Assembly (NCBI GenBank): GCA_002841335.1
Contig: PHEY01000001.1
Location: 62,964-126,963, forward strand
Direction: 5' to 3'
From: Actinobacteria bacterium HGW-Actinobacteria-2
Lineage (GTDB): Bacteria; Actinomycetota; Actinomycetes; Propionibacteriales; Propionibacteriaceae
DNA: 64,000 nt
Numbering within the stretch: position 1 is the stretch's first letter; each line of letters opens with the position of its first letter. The notes under the pieces were generated by a model that did not search any database, was not told the DNA's origin, and saw only the letters and a list, made by a program, of their open reading frames with translations. This document shows positions 12,933 to 30,351 of the stretch, piece by piece. The translations under genes were made by a program, and so were the position numbers.

Positions 12933-13700
12933 CTACACCTTGCGCAGGACGGCGACGACCTTGCCCAGGATCGAGGCGTCGTTACCGTCGATGGGTTCGT
13001 AGGCCGGGTTGTGCGGCATCAGCCACACCTGACCGGGGGTCCGCTTGAACGTCTTCACGGTGGCCTCATCGCCGAGCAGGGCGGCGACGATATCGCCGTT
13101 GACCGCGTCGGGCTGTTGGCGCACGACCACGTAGTCGCCGTCGCAGATGGCCGCGTCGATCATCGAGTCTCCCTTGACCTCCAACAGGAACAAGGTGCCT
13201 TCGCCGACCAACTGCTTGGGCAGGCTGAACACGTCCTCAACCACCTGCTCGGCCAGAATCGGGCCGCCGGCGGCGATCCGACCCAGGATCGGCACCTCGA
13301 CCGAAGGTGCGCTCGGCGGCGGGAAGTCCGGCTCGACGGCGACCGCCGGTGCCGTAGGGACGGCCGGCGCCATCGAACTGGGCAGCCGCACCTCCAGGGC
13401 GCGCGGACGGTGGGGGTCACGGAACAGGAAGCCCTTGGCCTGCAGCACCTTCAGCTGATGTGCGGCAGAGGAAGACGAGGCCAGCCCCACGCGGTCGGCG
13501 ATCTCGCGGATGCTCGGCGGGTAGCCGCGATCGGCGAGGGCGTCACGGATCACTTCCAAGATGCGGCGCTGCCGGGGGGTGAGGCCCTCGGCGTCGACCG
13601 GACCATCGGGAAGCTCGCTGACGTTGGTGCCGAGTTGTGCGGCCACATCCTCTTTCCGAGGACGTCCGGGCCTGCGTGCCGGGGGAACTGTCGTTGCCAT
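12933..13700 (-). CDS. lexA: LexA repressor
   Basis: SOS repressor and self-cleaving S24 peptidase. At 255 aa it carries the longer actinobacterial N-terminus. The winged helix spans about residues 42-105 ([40 protein letters not shown]). The cleavage site is Ala144-Gly145 in GRIAAGG, with catalytic Ser179 (GDSMID) and Lys216 (ATVKTF). A LexA box at 13732-13747 indicates autorepression, and a -10-like TACGGT ends 6 nt before the ATG. It leads a lexA-DUF167-reductase run. Confidence 0.98.
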
Positions 13701-13706
13701 GAACTC

Positions 13707-13747
13707 ACCGTAACGGCGGGGGAGTCATGAATCAAACATATGTTCGA
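13707..13747 (-). promoter_or_regulatory. lexA promoter: LexA box plus -10 element
   Basis: TCAAACATATGTTCGA at 13732-13747 matches TCGAAC-N4-GTTCGA at 11 of 12 positions. On the minus strand a -10-like TACGGT (13712-13707) ends 6 nt before the lexA ATG. The box covers the -35 zone, as expected for autorepression. It starts 10 nt past the stop codon of the upstream PEP-utilising gene. Confidence 0.85.
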
Positions 13748-13757
13748 GCGTGTCGCC

Positions 13758-16325
13758 CTATGCTCCCCTCTCGAGGATCTCGACGGTGCCGCGCGCGCCG
13801 TCCACCCGCACGAGGTCGCCGGTGGTGAGGCGGCTGGTCGCACTCCCGCATCCGACAACGGCGGGAATGCCGAACTCCCTGGCCACGATTGCGGCGTGGC
13901 TCAGCGGAGCGCCGAGATCGGTGACGATTGCTGAGGCCCGTCCGAAGACCGGCGTCCAACCGATGTTGGTCAGGGCCGTGACCAGGACTTCGCCCGGCAG
14001 CAACTCGGCTGCGTCGTCGAAGCCATCGAGTCGTCGAACCCTGCCCACGGCTACCCCCACTGATCCGGCGGCCCCGACGACGGTAGCCGCCGCGGACTCG
14101 GTTGGGGCAGGTACCTGCGAGCCGGCGATATAGAAGTCGCTGCGCCGATGAGGGTCTTGCGCCCAGAGGTCGGGGTTGAAGGCACCGACGATGAACAGGG
14201 GGAGAGGGGGCAGTGAGCGGTGATGATCCAGGGTTGCTTGGCGGGCAGGGAAGTGAGTGAAAGCGGAGGTGTCGCCGCGTAGCGCGGACAGCAGCTCCGG
14301 GAGGGTCAAGAGAAAGACGCTCTCACCGATGTTCAGGAGGTGACCGGCGCGCAGTGCGAAGGCCCGGTGCACGGCCGTCCAGCGGACCGATTCCGAGCGC
14401 ACCTGCTCTCGCAGTGCCGCCCGTGTTGCCCGGCGATGCAGGCCGCGCTCGATTCGTGCGGCGGCGCGGGGGTGCTGGGATCGCAGGCGCGCCAGCACCG
14501 CCTGGTGGGCCGCAGCGCGCTCGGCGCGCAGGGCGGTGAGGTCCGCGCCCTCGGCCGAGGATGCGAGGGCGCGATCCAGCCAGTCGGGGTCCTCCGATGG
14601 CCGGGCCCAGGCCAGCTCGATCTCGTTGTAGCCGCGATGTCCGAAGTGGAGCAGGTAGTCCTCGCGGGAGAGTTGGCCGGCGCGGACGGCCTGCAGACCC
14701 ATCGCGGGGCCCAGGCTTGCCAAACCGTCACTGAGGCCGGCCATGTTGGACAACAGCGCTGCCGCGTCGTCGGTGTCGACGAGTTCACGCACCGCAGCCT
14801 CTACGGGGTCGAGGCGATCATCGGTTACGGCGATCACGGCCCAGAACGAACGCAGAGCGGCCGCGAAGATCCGGTTGCGCCACAGTGCCTCCAAGTCGGC
14901 GGGGGTTGAGATCTCGTTGATGTCGGCCTTCAGCCTTGCTGCTTCGGGCGCGCTGACGGCAAGGAACCGGTGGATTCGGGCGCGATGCCACTGAAGTCGC
15001 AGCACGGTGGCGAGCAACCCGAGGCCCTCGTCCTGCCAGTCGGCACGGGTCAGTGGCAGCACCGGGATCGGCACCTGTGGTGGCAGCGTGCCCCACAGCC
15101 CGGCGATCTGCTCATAGACGGTCCGCGGATCGCTGATGGCTTTGGGACCGCGCGCGCTCACTTGCACGCTGAGGTTGGCGTAGGGGCGTCCCGCGACATA
15201 GCCGGCCATCTCACGCCCACGAAGCTTCATCGACGGTCCGCCGTTGTCCTGGAGATAACTGGTGAGCGAGATCGTCAGCGGCGTCTGCGGTTCCGGGTTG
15301 GCCTCGGAGAGGTTGGTCGCCGACCACAGGCAGTTGCCACTCAGGGTGTCGTTTCGCTCGGCTGTCATCGGATCCCAGCCGTTGAGAGTGGTGATCGGAC
15401 GGGACTGAAGGATCCAGACCTTGCCGTCTGCCAGTGCCCACTCGATGTCTTGGGCGACGCCGTCGAAACACCCCTCGATGTCGTGAGCAAGCGTGTGCAG
15501 GCGAGCGGCAGCCGTCGCCAGCGAAGCCGGCCCGTCGTAGGTGCCCTGTGGTCGGAGGAAGGTGAACGCGGCAGCGTCCGCGTCGCCGGAGACCAATGCT
15601 TCGCCGCTTCCGGTCACGACATTGCCCAGCATGGATTCCAGACTCCCGGTGAGGGGGTCGACGGTGAACAGGACGCCGGCCACGTCCGCGTCGACCATCA
15701 CCTGGATCACCACGGCCAACTCGGCTTCGGCGGACCCGGCGTGCTGCGCTGCGGAGTATGCCGCCACCCGCTGGCTCGCGCCGGAGCTGCGGACCCGCTT
15801 CACGGCGGCAAGCACGTCTTGGCGGGGTACGTTCAGCTCCGACTCGAAGGCGCCGGCGAAGGATGCGGTTGCGGAGTCCTCGGCGCGCGCTGAGGACCGG
15901 ACGGCGAACCGCTCTCCGCGCAGCTTCGTGAGTGCTGCCTCGAGCGCGACCCGTCCCTCGCTGGTGAGGTCCGCGCCCGTGAACGCTTCCGGCAGTACGA
16001 CGCAGGCCGGGGGTACCGGGAACCCTCTTTGGGTCAGGCTGGCGAGGGCTCGGGCCTTGCCACCGGCGCGGGCCGTGTCAGGCGGGAGGGAGTGCAGGTC
16101 ATAGACCAGAGCGCCGGGACGTGCCCAGCGCACCCGGCGGATCGCGCTGACCGCCATCGCGGCCACGGCGCCTCCGACCAGAAAACCAAGGGTGCCAGCC
16201 ATTACGGTGAGGGGGATTCGGGCCAGCAGCGGCACGTTCGCGGTGGTGGCGACCAGGGCCCCACTCGCGGCGGCAGCAACATTGGCGCCGATCTGCCTCG
16301 CCCTGCGGGCGCGGGGGTCACTCAT
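13758..16325 (-). CDS. Membrane-anchored PEP synthase / rifampicin phosphotransferase-like protein
   Basis: An 855-aa protein. Residues about 10-65 form two hydrophobic segments (SGALVATTANVPLLARIPLT and TLGFLVGGAVAAMAVSAIRR), then a PPDK/PEP-synthase ATP-grasp domain: GGKARALASLTQRGFPVPP, FAVRSSARAEDSATASFAG, GVLFTVDPLTG and QDIEWALADGKVWILQSRPI. A middle region resembles the drug-binding part of Rph. At the C-terminus lies a swivelling phosphohistidine domain with APLSHAAIVAREFGIPAVVG (catalytic His near 810). The family transfers ATP beta-phosphate through this His; PEP synthase, Rph and orphan members share it. The substrate here is unknown. The membrane anchor is not in soluble PEP synthase or Rph. 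The ATG at 16325 overlaps the AbrB gene by 8 nt. Confidence 0.85.
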   Translation of the reverse strand: MSDPRARRARQIGANVAAAASGALVATTANVPLLARIPLTVMAGTLGFLVGGAVAAMAVSAIRRVRWARPGALVYDLHSLPPDTARAGGKARALASLTQRGFPVPPACVVLPEAFTGADLTSEGRVALEAALTKLRGERFAVRSSARAEDSATASFAGAFESELNVPRQDVLAAVKRVRSSGASQRVAAYSAAQHAGSAEAELAVVIQVMVDADVAGVLFTVDPLTGSLESMLGNVVTGSGEALVSGDADAAAFTFLRPQGTYDGPASLATAAARLHTLAHDIEGCFDGVAQDIEWALADGKVWILQSRPITTLNGWDPMTAERNDTLSGNCLWSATNLSEANPEPQTPLTISLTSYLQDNGGPSMKLRGREMAGYVAGRPYANLSVQVSARGPKAISDPRTVYEQIAGLWGTLPPQVPIPVLPLTRADWQDEGLGLLATVLRLQWHRARIHRFLAVSAPEAARLKADINEISTPADLEALWRNRIFAAALRSFWAVIAVTDDRLDPVEAAVRELVDTDDAAALLSNMAGLSDGLASLGPAMGLQAVRAGQLSREDYLLHFGHRGYNEIELAWARPSEDPDWLDRALASSAEGADLTALRAERAAAHQAVLARLRSQHPRAAARIERGLHRRATRAALREQVRSESVRWTAVHRAFALRAGHLLNIGESVFLLTLPELLSALRGDTSAFTHFPARQATLDHHRSLPPLPLFIVGAFNPDLWAQDPHRRSDFYIAGSQVPAPTESAAATVVGAAGSVGVAVGRVRRLDGFDDAAELLPGEVLVTALTNIGWTPVFGRASAIVTDLGAPLSHAAIVAREFGIPAVVGCGSATSRLTTGDLVRVDGARGTVEILERGA

Positions 16326-16560
16326 CGGAGTTGGGCGCTCCGCCCAGGAGACGGGCGAGCCCAGGAACGCGTGCCAGCACCTGATCGGCCTTGCCGAAGG
16401 CCAAGCCGAACTCCAGGTCGCCGAAGACCAAGAGCTTGTCGCCGACGGCAATGCCGAGATCTCGCCGGGCTTCGGCCGGAATGACGATTTGGCCGCGATC
16501 GCTCACCGTGACCGCTCCGTAGAAACGGCGGCCGGGATCGTCAGGGTGTGAGTAGGCCAT
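16318..16560 (-). CDS. AbrB/MazE/SpoVT-family DNA-binding protein
   Basis: An 80-aa protein with one swapped-hairpin AbrB domain at about residues 14-50 (YGAVTVSDRGQIVIPAEARR, then DLGIAVGDKLLVFGD). The C-terminus is short and partly hydrophobic. The ATG at 16560 has a strong GGAGGGG. The last codons overlap the start of the PEP-synthase-like gene, so the two are translationally coupled. A perfect 6-4-6 palindrome at 16581-16596 in its promoter is a likely autoregulatory site. MazE is a toxin antidote of this fold, but the partner here is an enzyme, so a local transcriptional regulator is the best reading. Confidence 0.85.
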   Translation of the reverse strand: MAYSHPDDPGRRFYGAVTVSDRGQIVIPAEARRDLGIAVGDKLLVFGDLEFGLAFGKADQVLARVPGLARLLGGAPNSDE

Positions 16561-16596: not shown

Positions 16597-16661
16597 CCTA
16601 GCGACCGCGAGTGATTTTGTCAGTGGCGAGTGTGAGGCTGTGGATCGGGTCGACACGCCGG

Positions 16662-16677
16662 GCGAACAGATGTTCGA
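16662..16677 (+). promoter_or_regulatory. LexA box 1 upstream of the DivS-like gene
   Basis: GCGAACAGATGTTCGA matches TCGAAC-N4-GTTCGA at 11 of 12 positions. It covers the -35 zone of the promoter whose -10 is TAGAGT at 16698-16703. Confidence 0.88.
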
Positions 16678-16704
16678 AAAGTGTCGGACTGTTCGCGTAG
16701 AGTA

Positions 16705-16720
16705 TCGAACAGACGTTCGA
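16705..16720 (+). promoter_or_regulatory. LexA box 2, perfect consensus, upstream of the DivS-like gene
   Basis: TCGAACAGACGTTCGA matches the consensus at all 12 conserved positions and lies just downstream of the -10 TAGAGT (16698-16703), over the expected transcription start. The centre-to-centre distance to box 1 is 43 bp, about four helical turns. Confidence 0.93.
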
Positions 16721-16734
16721 GAGAGGTGGCAATC

Positions 16735-17046
16735 ATGAGCGCAGTGCTGGTAGACGATCTGCTCGTCGAGGAGTTCCTGGCGGCGACGCCGGTACGCCTG
16801 CGTTTGTTGCCCGGTGGTGCCGACCTTGATGCTGTCGAGCCCACGGTGGTGATGCCCGCGGTGTCGCCGGTGGCGGTGCCGCGTCGGACGTCTGGGACGC
16901 TCCGGCTGACCAATCGGGGGATCGCGGTCATTCTGGGCACGTTCGTCACTCTGTTCGCCACCGGTGTGGCCGTGGCAGTCACCAGCTTCCTGGCCGTGAG
17001 TGATGCGCCGCTGTCCGCGCCGGCAGTGGTGAGTGTGGCTCGCTGA
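16735..17046 (+). CDS. Small SOS-regulated membrane protein, DivS/ChiZ-like by position
   Basis: A 103-aa protein with one transmembrane segment at about residues 64-88 (LTNRGIAVILGTFVTLFATG, then VAVAVTSFL), a cytoplasmic N-terminal part of about 60 residues and a short external tail. Two LexA boxes flank its -10, so expression should be tightly damage-dependent. The ATG follows GAGAGGTGG. SOS-induced membrane proteins in the lexA-nrdR interval (DivS in Corynebacterium, ChiZ/Rv2719c in mycobacteria) delay cell division; both normally carry a LysM domain, absent here. The division-inhibitor role is therefore inferred from position and regulation. Confidence 0.75.
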   Translation: MSAVLVDDLLVEEFLAATPVRLRLLPGGADLDAVEPTVVMPAVSPVAVPRRTSGTLRLTNRGIAVILGTFVTLFATGVAVAVTSFLAVSDAPLSAPAVVSVAR

Positions 17047-17327: not shown

Positions 17328-17786
17328 ATGCATTGCCCGTTCTGTCGCAACACCGATACCAGGGTGCTCGACAGCCGGGTCGCCGAAGATGGCAAGAGCA
17401 TCCGGCGCCGGCGTCAGTGCCCGGCGTGCGAGCGGCGTTTCACCACCCTGGAGCAGATGCAACTGGTTGTGGTCAAGCGGTCCGGTGTGGTGGAGCCCTT
17501 CTCCCGGGAGAAGGTCATCACCGGAGTGGCGAAGGCCTGCAAGGGCCGTCCGGTCTCCGAAACCGACCTGGCCCGACTGGGTCAGCAGGTGGAGGAGACG
17601 CTGCGGGCGTCCGGTCAGGCGGAGATCCCGGCCGACGAAGTGGGGCTCACCATCCTGGGCCCGCTTCGTGAGCTCGATGCGGTCGCCTACCTGCGATTCG
17701 CCAGCGTGTACAAGAACTTCGATTCCGTGGACGACTTCTCCGAAGAGATCCAGACCCTGCGTCAGCCGACGCTCACCACCCACTGA
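17328..17786 (+). CDS. nrdR: Transcriptional repressor NrdR
   Basis: ATP/dATP-sensing repressor of ribonucleotide reductase genes. It has 152 aa: an N-terminal zinc ribbon (MHCPFCRN, then [11 protein letters not shown]) and an ATP-cone ([31 protein letters not shown]). The ATG at 17328 places the zinc-binding cysteines at residues 3 and 6 as in the family; AGAAAGG lies upstream. It is followed by nrdJ after 45 nt, the nrdRJ arrangement known in Streptomyces. Autoregulation through NrdR boxes upstream is likely. Confidence 0.97.
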
Positions 17787-29393: not shown

Positions 29394-29411
29394 GCCGAAC
29401 AACTGTTCGGC
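29394..29411. promoter_or_regulatory. Palindromic operator with a LexA-box-like core, upstream of the LysR gene
   Basis: GCCGAACAACTGTTCGGC is a perfect 8-bp inverted repeat with a 2-nt centre. It contains CGAAC-N4-GTTCG, the inner ten conserved bases of the LexA box, with non-consensus outer bases. It sits 7 nt before a -10-like TATGAT (29419-29424) of the LysR gene. It could bind LexA or the LysR protein. Confidence 0.5.
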
Positions 29412-29430: not shown

Positions 29431-30351
29431 ATGCTCGATCTCAATCGTCTCCGCATCCTGCGCGCCGTGGTGGCCAGCGGCTCGGTGAACGAGACCGCCC
29501 GTCGGCTGGGCTACACCCCCTCGACGGTCAGCCAGCACATTCACACCCTCGCCAAAGAGGTGGGCTTCCCCCTCATCGATCGGGTCGGACGCGGCATCGT
29601 GCCGACCGCTGCGGCGGTCGAACTGGCCACGGCTAGCGCAGACGTCCTCCATGCCGCTTCCCGACTCAGCGCTCTGGTGAAGGACCTTCGCGAAGGCGCC
29701 ACCGATCGACTGGTGCTGCGTACCTTCGCCTCGGCCGCCTACGCCTGGATGCCGCAGGTGGCCCGAACTCTGCGGCAGGAGTTCCCCGGACTCACCCTTG
29801 AGCTGTCGATCAGCGAGTCCGATCTGGCTGAGGACGCGGGCCAGGCCGACATCGAGATTCACACTGAGTTGCCGTACGCGCCGTCGATCACAGCCGCCGG
29901 CTTCCGGCGGACGGTCCTGGGCACCGACGACTTCCTGTTGGCCGTGCCCACCGACCATCCGCTGGTGGGTTCGGGTCCGATCGACCTGGCCGAGTTCGCC
30001 GAGGACGACTGGGTTCAATACGACTTCCGCGACGAGATCGCCACCAGCCTGACCACCCGTGCCTGTGCCGAAGCCGGCTTCACGCCGCACTACGTCGCTC
30101 GGGCCCAGGATCACGTGACCGGCTTGGCGTTCGTGTCTGCCGGTGTCGGCATCACCCTGGTTCCGGAGCTGGCAGCCGCGTGGTCGGCCTTCGACGTGAA
30201 CTTCATCCGCACCCAGAACCCGACCCCACAACGTCGGATTGTGGTTCTGGTGCGCAACGCGGTGTCGTCCAATCCGGCCGCGAGCCGTCTGGTGGACCTC
30301 CTGGTCGACGTGGCCTCGGCGTCCACCCACCGGGCAGGTTTACCCGTCTGA
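29431..30351 (+). CDS. LysR-family transcriptional regulator
   Basis: A 306-aa regulator. The winged helix-turn-helix is at residues 1-62 (LNRLRILRAVVASGSVNETA, RRLGYTPSTVSQHIHTLAKE), followed by a linker helix and a periplasmic-binding-protein-like effector domain (about 90-295; VLRTFASAAYAWMPQVARTL to VSAGVGITLVPELAAAW). The effector is unknown. TATGAT ends 6 nt before the ATG, so the transcript is likely leaderless. A perfect palindrome overlaps the promoter and a 57-aa frame is divergent. No metabolic operon is adjacent to reveal the target. Confidence 0.93.
   Translation: MLDLNRLRILRAVVASGSVNETARRLGYTPSTVSQHIHTLAKEVGFPLIDRVGRGIVPTAAAVELATASADVLHAASRLSALVKDLREGATDRLVLRTFASAAYAWMPQVARTLRQEFPGLTLELSISESDLAEDAGQADIEIHTELPYAPSITAAGFRRTVLGTDDFLLAVPTDHPLVGSGPIDLAEFAEDDWVQYDFRDEIATSLTTRACAEAGFTPHYVARAQDHVTGLAFVSAGVGITLVPELAAAWSAFDVNFIRTQNPTPQRRIVVLVRNAVSSNPAASRLVDLLVDVASASTHRAGLPV

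Follow-up and report, generated by a model that had tools for sequence, protein, structure and literature searches.

Can a small LexA-controlled membrane protein encoded beside lexA act as an SOS division inhibitor if it has no LysM domain? The question is raised by a gene for a 103-aa protein found in the window (here, the whole 64-kb stretch of DNA analysed). The roles published for LysM in inhibitors of this type are in conflict. According to the passages cited, three situations can be distinguished: (i) in YneA, whose helix binds FtsW, deletion of LysM abolishes activity (PMC13396833); (ii) in ChiZ, the N-terminus and the helix suffice for filamentation, i.e., LysM is reported to be dispensable (PMC7355643); and (iii) DivS and SosA are described as lacking the domain altogether (PMC6851548).

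In view of the last description, LexA-controlled, one-helix inhibitors without LysM are already known, and DivS cannot serve, as the earlier note had intended, as the point of comparison against which LysM is missing. Among the matches listed in the open-licence literature, none describes such a protein in Propionibacteriaceae. A family of proteins that lack LysM while keeping the helix, the boxes and the position amounts to a natural deletion series, in which the roles of the helix and of wall binding become separable; besides, it supplies motifs for mutation (LT.RG and FL.VS/AL.VT). The reading favoured here, at a probability of roughly 0.75, is that the gene represents the actinobacterial lexA-linked division suppressor as it occurs in Propionibacteriaceae, and that its product is a membrane protein induced by SOS to inhibit septum synthesis.

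The locus between lexA and nrdR

The features of the locus are collected in Table 1. The small gene lies between lexA and nrdR, which bears out the DivS/ChiZ-type location proposed for it. As judged by the nearest relative, it also shows the adjacency to lexA that is typical of ChiZ and YneA: there, the two genes are neighbours and the starts of the lexA box and of box 1 are separated by 90 bp. Likewise, a lexA-type TCAAACA box is found no more than 260 bp from the gene start in 12 of the 20 same-genus loci that have the box pair described below. In the window, an extra stretch of approximately 2.8 kb is inserted between lexA and the small gene.

Table 1. Coordinates of the features in and around the locus (window positions).
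Feature	Position	Strand	Remarks
recA	LexA site at 1650		Pfam RecA
lexA	12933..13700	-	Own LexA box at 13732-13747
TTGTCAGTG, PafBC/RecA-NDp-like core	16617-16625	+	TGTC starts 44 bp 5' of box 1
LexA box 1, GCGAACAGATGTTCGA	16662-16677		11/12 match; pattern search, kept in relatives
TCGAAA, weak -35-like hexamer	16674-16679	+	Spacer of 18 to TAGAGT; overlaps the end of box 1
TAGAGT, -10-like hexamer	16698-16703	+	Placement and conservation
LexA box 2, TCGAACAGACGTTCGA	16705-16720		12/12 match; just 3' of the -10-like hexamer
Single-helix protein, candidate SOS division inhibitor (103 aa)	16735..17046	+	ORF, alignment, AlphaFold2
nrdR	17328..17786	+	Downstream neighbour of the small gene

The interval separating lexA from the small gene (13758-16560) is occupied by two minus-strand ORFs, one PEP-synthase-like and the other MazE/AbrB-like. 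The gap is also enlarged in a second member of the genus (locus L008 of genome G022), where the starts of the lexA box and of box 1 are 775 bp apart and, hence, the spot between lexA and box 1 appears to take insertions.

LexA boxes and promoter-like elements

A pattern search reproduced the positions and scores of the two LexA boxes, which lie on either side of TAGAGT with their centres 43 bp apart. In a scan of named genomes with NrdR, the closest relatives belonged to Propionibacteriaceae, and some of the same-genus loci come from records named Propionicimonas. With up to two mismatches allowed per box, 20 of the 22 loci of this genus (window included; locus L002 was excluded as a chance match) have the pair 5' of the gene. 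The two loci without it, L010 and L022 (contig end), were left out of the motif count (n = 20). In the nearest relative, both boxes and TAGAGT are intact. The spacing of the boxes is 41-43 bp in eight loci and 53-57 bp in 12; that two LexA dimers bind cooperatively at the pair is speculative. As a separate observation, the two boxes start exactly 16 bp apart in 13 of 20 outgroup loci (L109-L128), versus the 41-57 bp of Propionicimonas.

All eight loci with the 41-43 bp spacing have TAGAGT or TAGCGT 7 bases 5' of box 2, together with a weak -35-like hexamer where box 1 ends. Given this placement of both hexamers, LexA bound to either box should cover the promoter. A consensus promoter scan of the window stretch detected no promoter around TAGAGT and, in consequence, its assignment as a -10 element rests on position and conservation. 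In any case, conserved boxes at the putative promoter are what is found in members of the LexA (SOS) regulon.

A possible second input through PafBC

The RecA-independent (RecA-NDp) promoter is given in the cited passage the consensus tTGTCRgtg - 8 nt - TannnT (PMC5656591), and TTGTCAGTG resembles its core. A dual control, in which PafBC activates the gene from TTGTCAGTG in addition to the LexA input, is compatible with the favoured reading and is a serious possibility, if one short of even odds. Of the 20 genus loci, 13 have the core TGTC(A/G)GTG, its start lying 41-44 bp 5' of box 1 and its distance to the ATG ranging from 113 to 133. Adjacent WYL genes are present in the genome, and the second one matches HTH_PafC at 1.4e-39; an extended PafBC-like pattern gives eight matches genome-wide versus two in the control, one of them before a LexA-boxed DUF222-HNH gene. 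Furthermore, such control would match that reported for the rv2719c operon, which is named in a supplement list as the one served by the PafBC motif near lexA (PMC8151990).

The core is not, however, accompanied by a PafBC-type -10: TANNNT at the published spacing occurs in none of these 13 genus loci, and the core itself is missing from the other seven. In the window's own genome, moreover, TTGTCAGTG overlaps a promoter-like CTGACA-17-TAGGGT on the minus strand. Most other genome matches to the extended pattern do not precede recognisable damage-response genes: one has a transporter-like ORF downstream of it, and the others seem to be internal to ORFs.

In the outgroup, the exact core followed by 8 nt and TA was found at four loci (L064, L066, L111, L123), with the full TANNNT only in L111. 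The DUF222-HNH gene mentioned above lies near 117 kb of contig C1 in the window's own genome (locus L131), and the LexA box that accompanies its PafBC-like core is weak. It was also considered whether TTGTCAGTG could be the -35 element of lexA itself. This is unlikely, since it keeps its distance to box 1 and since the lexA promoters of relatives are mostly TTGA(T/A)T-16 to 18-TANNNT at lexA's own box.

The predicted protein

The ATG was taken as the start because most homologues (whose starts were hand-picked in the alignment) read MSA.LVD from there on. An alternative GTG start at 16681, which would yield 121 aa, is unlikely in view of this conservation and of the fact that it would place box 2 inside the gene. 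Searches of Pfam and NCBIfam with the protein returned no match at E up to 1. A search of solved structures with the 52-protein family profile gave three matches, which at E 0.49 to 0.99 were regarded as fortuitous.

The single transmembrane helix noticed at the outset agrees with the AlphaFold2 prediction (52 sequences; mean pLDDT 77.1, pTM 0.41), which has one helix at residues 60-89 and no other element. The protein carries an LT.RG motif at residues 58-62 and has 14 residues after the helix. The charge before the helix is positive (PRRTSG...RLTNRG), which suggests an N-inside orientation.

Four pairs of relatives gave pN/pS values of 0.29, 0.35, 0.39 and 0.37; judged by these ratios, purifying selection acts on the gene. 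In three of the pairs the portion from LT.RG onward is the more constrained half, the exception being the pair L019/L020, where the helix half is the less constrained one. Across 21 aligned genus proteins plus one of a sister genus, no variation is seen at F85 and hardly any at L86 and P92. As regards the segment leaving the helix, 29 of the 52 family proteins have the FL.VS type, nine the AL.VT type and 14 neither. Overall divergence is strong: mean column identity is 33% in the genus-level alignment and 14% in that of the 52 family proteins. When 29 other genomes of the genus were searched with the protein, 20 had a match at E up to 0.001 and eight had none at E up to 0.01; in one of these eight (G017), a candidate was found by position (locus L099).

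LysM in Propionibacteriaceae and in the outgroups

The positions of NrdR and LexA were obtained from 77 Propionibacteriaceae genomes, LexA being found in 68, and 40 lexA-nrdR regions were examined. The search for small single-helix proteins between both genes, as the earlier note had proposed, yielded a candidate ORF without LysM in 38 of the 40 regions. As for the two exceptions, the contig of L101 is too short, and L082 contains nothing beyond a 75-residue stretch that is not convincing. Boxed one-helix ORFs beside lexA occur in 25 genera of the family. At E up to 0.1, the Pfam LysM search matched none of 52 Propionibacteriaceae proteins from 25 genera (the alignment of these 52 omits L082, L101, L104 and L054, the latter two having candidates by eye). 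Therefore, the lack of LysM observed in the 103-aa protein, which separates it from division suppressors of the ChiZ/YneA type, is a true absence, but it is not peculiar to this one gene. Displacement of LysM to another place was also considered and rejected: the genome's only two LysM matches lie together on a different contig, in a single open frame of 924 residues.

Five further Propionibacteriaceae stretches (L048, L050, L052, L053, L056) had no candidate; the genome of L048 gave one in another stretch (L100). With a LexA threshold of 1e-30, nine of the 77 genomes showed no match, namely five of five of one genus and four of five of another. L050 and L056 come from two of these nine genomes, and the 6 kb 5' of their nrdR showed neither a LexA box nor a candidate for the inhibitor.

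The outgroup comprised 30 loci: 10 of the same order and 20 of the same class, one per family (20 of 27 other families; f11, f23 and f27 to f31 not included). A LysM protein occupies the lexA-linked place in 25 of the 30 loci, which is the unselected figure; the 25 of 25 in the outgroup alignment is a result of selection, as only loci already showing LysM were taken in. LT.RG precedes the helix in 24 of these 25 proteins, and the sole one without it, L111, looks mycobacteria-like by eye. Among the remaining five loci, (i) L065 has LT.RG and the helix but no LysM; (ii) L128 is cut by the contig end; (iii) L120 and L122 are without such a gene; and (iv) in L060 no lexA region was seen.

In a set of 80 named loci, LT.RG, helix and box occur together in 36, i.e., 24 of Propionibacteriaceae without LysM and 12 of other families with it (seven of these 12 LysM calls by regex and five by eye). 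The other 44 had no such ORF in the flank examined. Across the several sets of loci, inspection by eye overruled the regex LysM calls of L080 and L225 (false matches 5' of the start) and added LysM domains missed in L221, L184, L189, L194, L210 and L215. In family f7, taken for Mycobacteriaceae, eight of 12 chosen loci (among L219-L230) lack LysM by eye, a proportion that is not representative because the sample is 12 of 41, mostly small genomes. These LysM-less loci are also without LT.RG, which suggests a separate loss. Together with L065, they suggest that LysM loss beside lexA recurs outside Propionibacteriaceae. For Propionibacteriaceae, a single loss at or near the base of the family would be the simplest history.

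Is it the same gene as that of the LysM-bearing outgroup proteins? The comparison of the family profile with the outgroup profile scored 40.4, aligned over LT.RG and the helix, versus 19.6 for the reversed profile, 24.3 for the best of 30 block-shuffled profiles and 10.6 for the best of 30 column-shuffled ones. The stretch common to both groups is short (31-42 columns). A homologous helix region is hence shared with the outgroup LysM proteins. Of the 52 family proteins, 35 match LT.RG strictly; the other 17 deviate from it or lack it and, in consequence, for several genera the link consists of position and boxes. On these sequence comparisons, the gene probably corresponds to the lexA-linked division suppressor of actinobacteria, with LysM lost.

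Relationship to known division inhibitors and proposed function

The protein can be set beside four known systems. ChiZ (Rv2719c) and the lexA-adjacent actinobacterial LysM proteins share with it the locus beside lexA, the LexA boxes, the single helix and the cytoplasmic N-terminal part, but have an outer LysM domain where the 103-aa protein has approximately 14 residues after the helix. DivS of Corynebacterium glutamicum, likened by its published description in the passages cited, is SOS-inducible, encoded near lexA, one-helix and LysM-less. The description of SosA of Staphylococcus in those passages is likewise close (77 aa, one helix, no LysM, divergent from lexA); in SosA, however, the helix is near the N-terminus (residues 10-30) and is followed by a long outer part, whereas the long part of the 103-aa protein precedes the helix. 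YneA of Bacillus subtilis is an SOS-induced one-helix inhibitor whose helix targets FtsW, but it requires the LysM that the 103-aa protein does not have. The locus encodes, in the vicinity of lexA, a small protein with a single helix, LexA boxes at its gene and no LysM, and in these features it corresponds to the DivS/SosA type.

The passages on these four proteins lead us to infer that the product is induced by SOS and inhibits late septum synthesis. This agrees with the earlier note in making an SOS division inhibitor the likeliest role, as indicated by the boxes, the helix, the locus, purifying selection and the profile match to LysM-bearing proteins. DNA damage would lead to cleavage of LexA and release of the promoter; the protein would insert N-inside into the membrane; its helix and flanking motifs would bind the late septal machinery, with partners of the FtsW/FtsI/FtsQ type (FtsI and FtsQ are the partners named for ChiZ in the passages cited; PMC7355643; PMC3989709); and septum synthesis would be delayed until repair. 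Wall binding of the YneA type would be replaced by, or unnecessary beside, the helix and a conserved segment just outside the membrane.

As to the latter, a conserved membrane-proximal outer segment is required for the activity of SosA, according to the passage cited (PMC6851548), and for this reason the FL.VS/AL.VT motif is the first candidate for a LysM replacement. By analogy, the segment leaving the helix could act like that of SosA. To confine its action to the membrane and cytoplasmic parts, as the earlier note proposed, may therefore be too narrow. A more specific version, that of a LysM-free class in Propionibacteriaceae in which a short segment of the form FL.VS(N/D).P or AL.VT has taken the place of wall binding, with the septal synthase as the direct target and with both LexA and PafBC as inputs, is doubtful as a whole.

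Since YneA is described as inactive without LysM, a protein deprived of the domain could have lost its function or acquired a different one. The gene might then encode a LexA-regulated small membrane protein with another job (membrane-stress or repair-associated), its division function having gone with LysM, and the strong divergence of the sequences points the same way. This is nevertheless unlikely: a boxed one-helix ORF stands beside lexA in 25 genera, LT.RG is kept in most family proteins, all four pairs of relatives indicate purifying selection, and ChiZ is reported to work without LysM. That the gene is a degenerate remnant of a LysM protein, heading for loss, is very improbable. In favour of it, the protein ends soon after the helix where the outgroup continues with linker and LysM, two family members have only 62 aa and one family region (L082) is without a convincing candidate; against it, the pN/pS values are low, the start, LT.RG and the FL.VS segment are conserved in the genus, and the LexA boxes are kept.

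LexA sites elsewhere in the window and the genome

The 64-kb window has 14 sites with up to two mismatches versus 2.88 expected, a number reached by none of 100 shuffles. In the 2.92-Mb genome there are three perfect sites, box 2 being one of them, and 26 one-mismatch sites, versus four for the reversed pattern. Fifteen of the genome sites were taken up as loci, of which 14 were examined. Those preceding SOS-type genes belong to recA, lexA, imuA' and the small membrane-protein gene, and behind the remaining examined sites no recognisable damage-response gene was seen.

Two of the sites outside the locus can be singled out. The perfect box at C2:419617 (L033) precedes the ImuA' gene (NCBIfam match). 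In the window, a symmetric LexA-like site with two mismatches (29395-29410) lies shortly 5' of a LysR-family regulator at 29431, and it may be the operator of this adjoining regulator itself.
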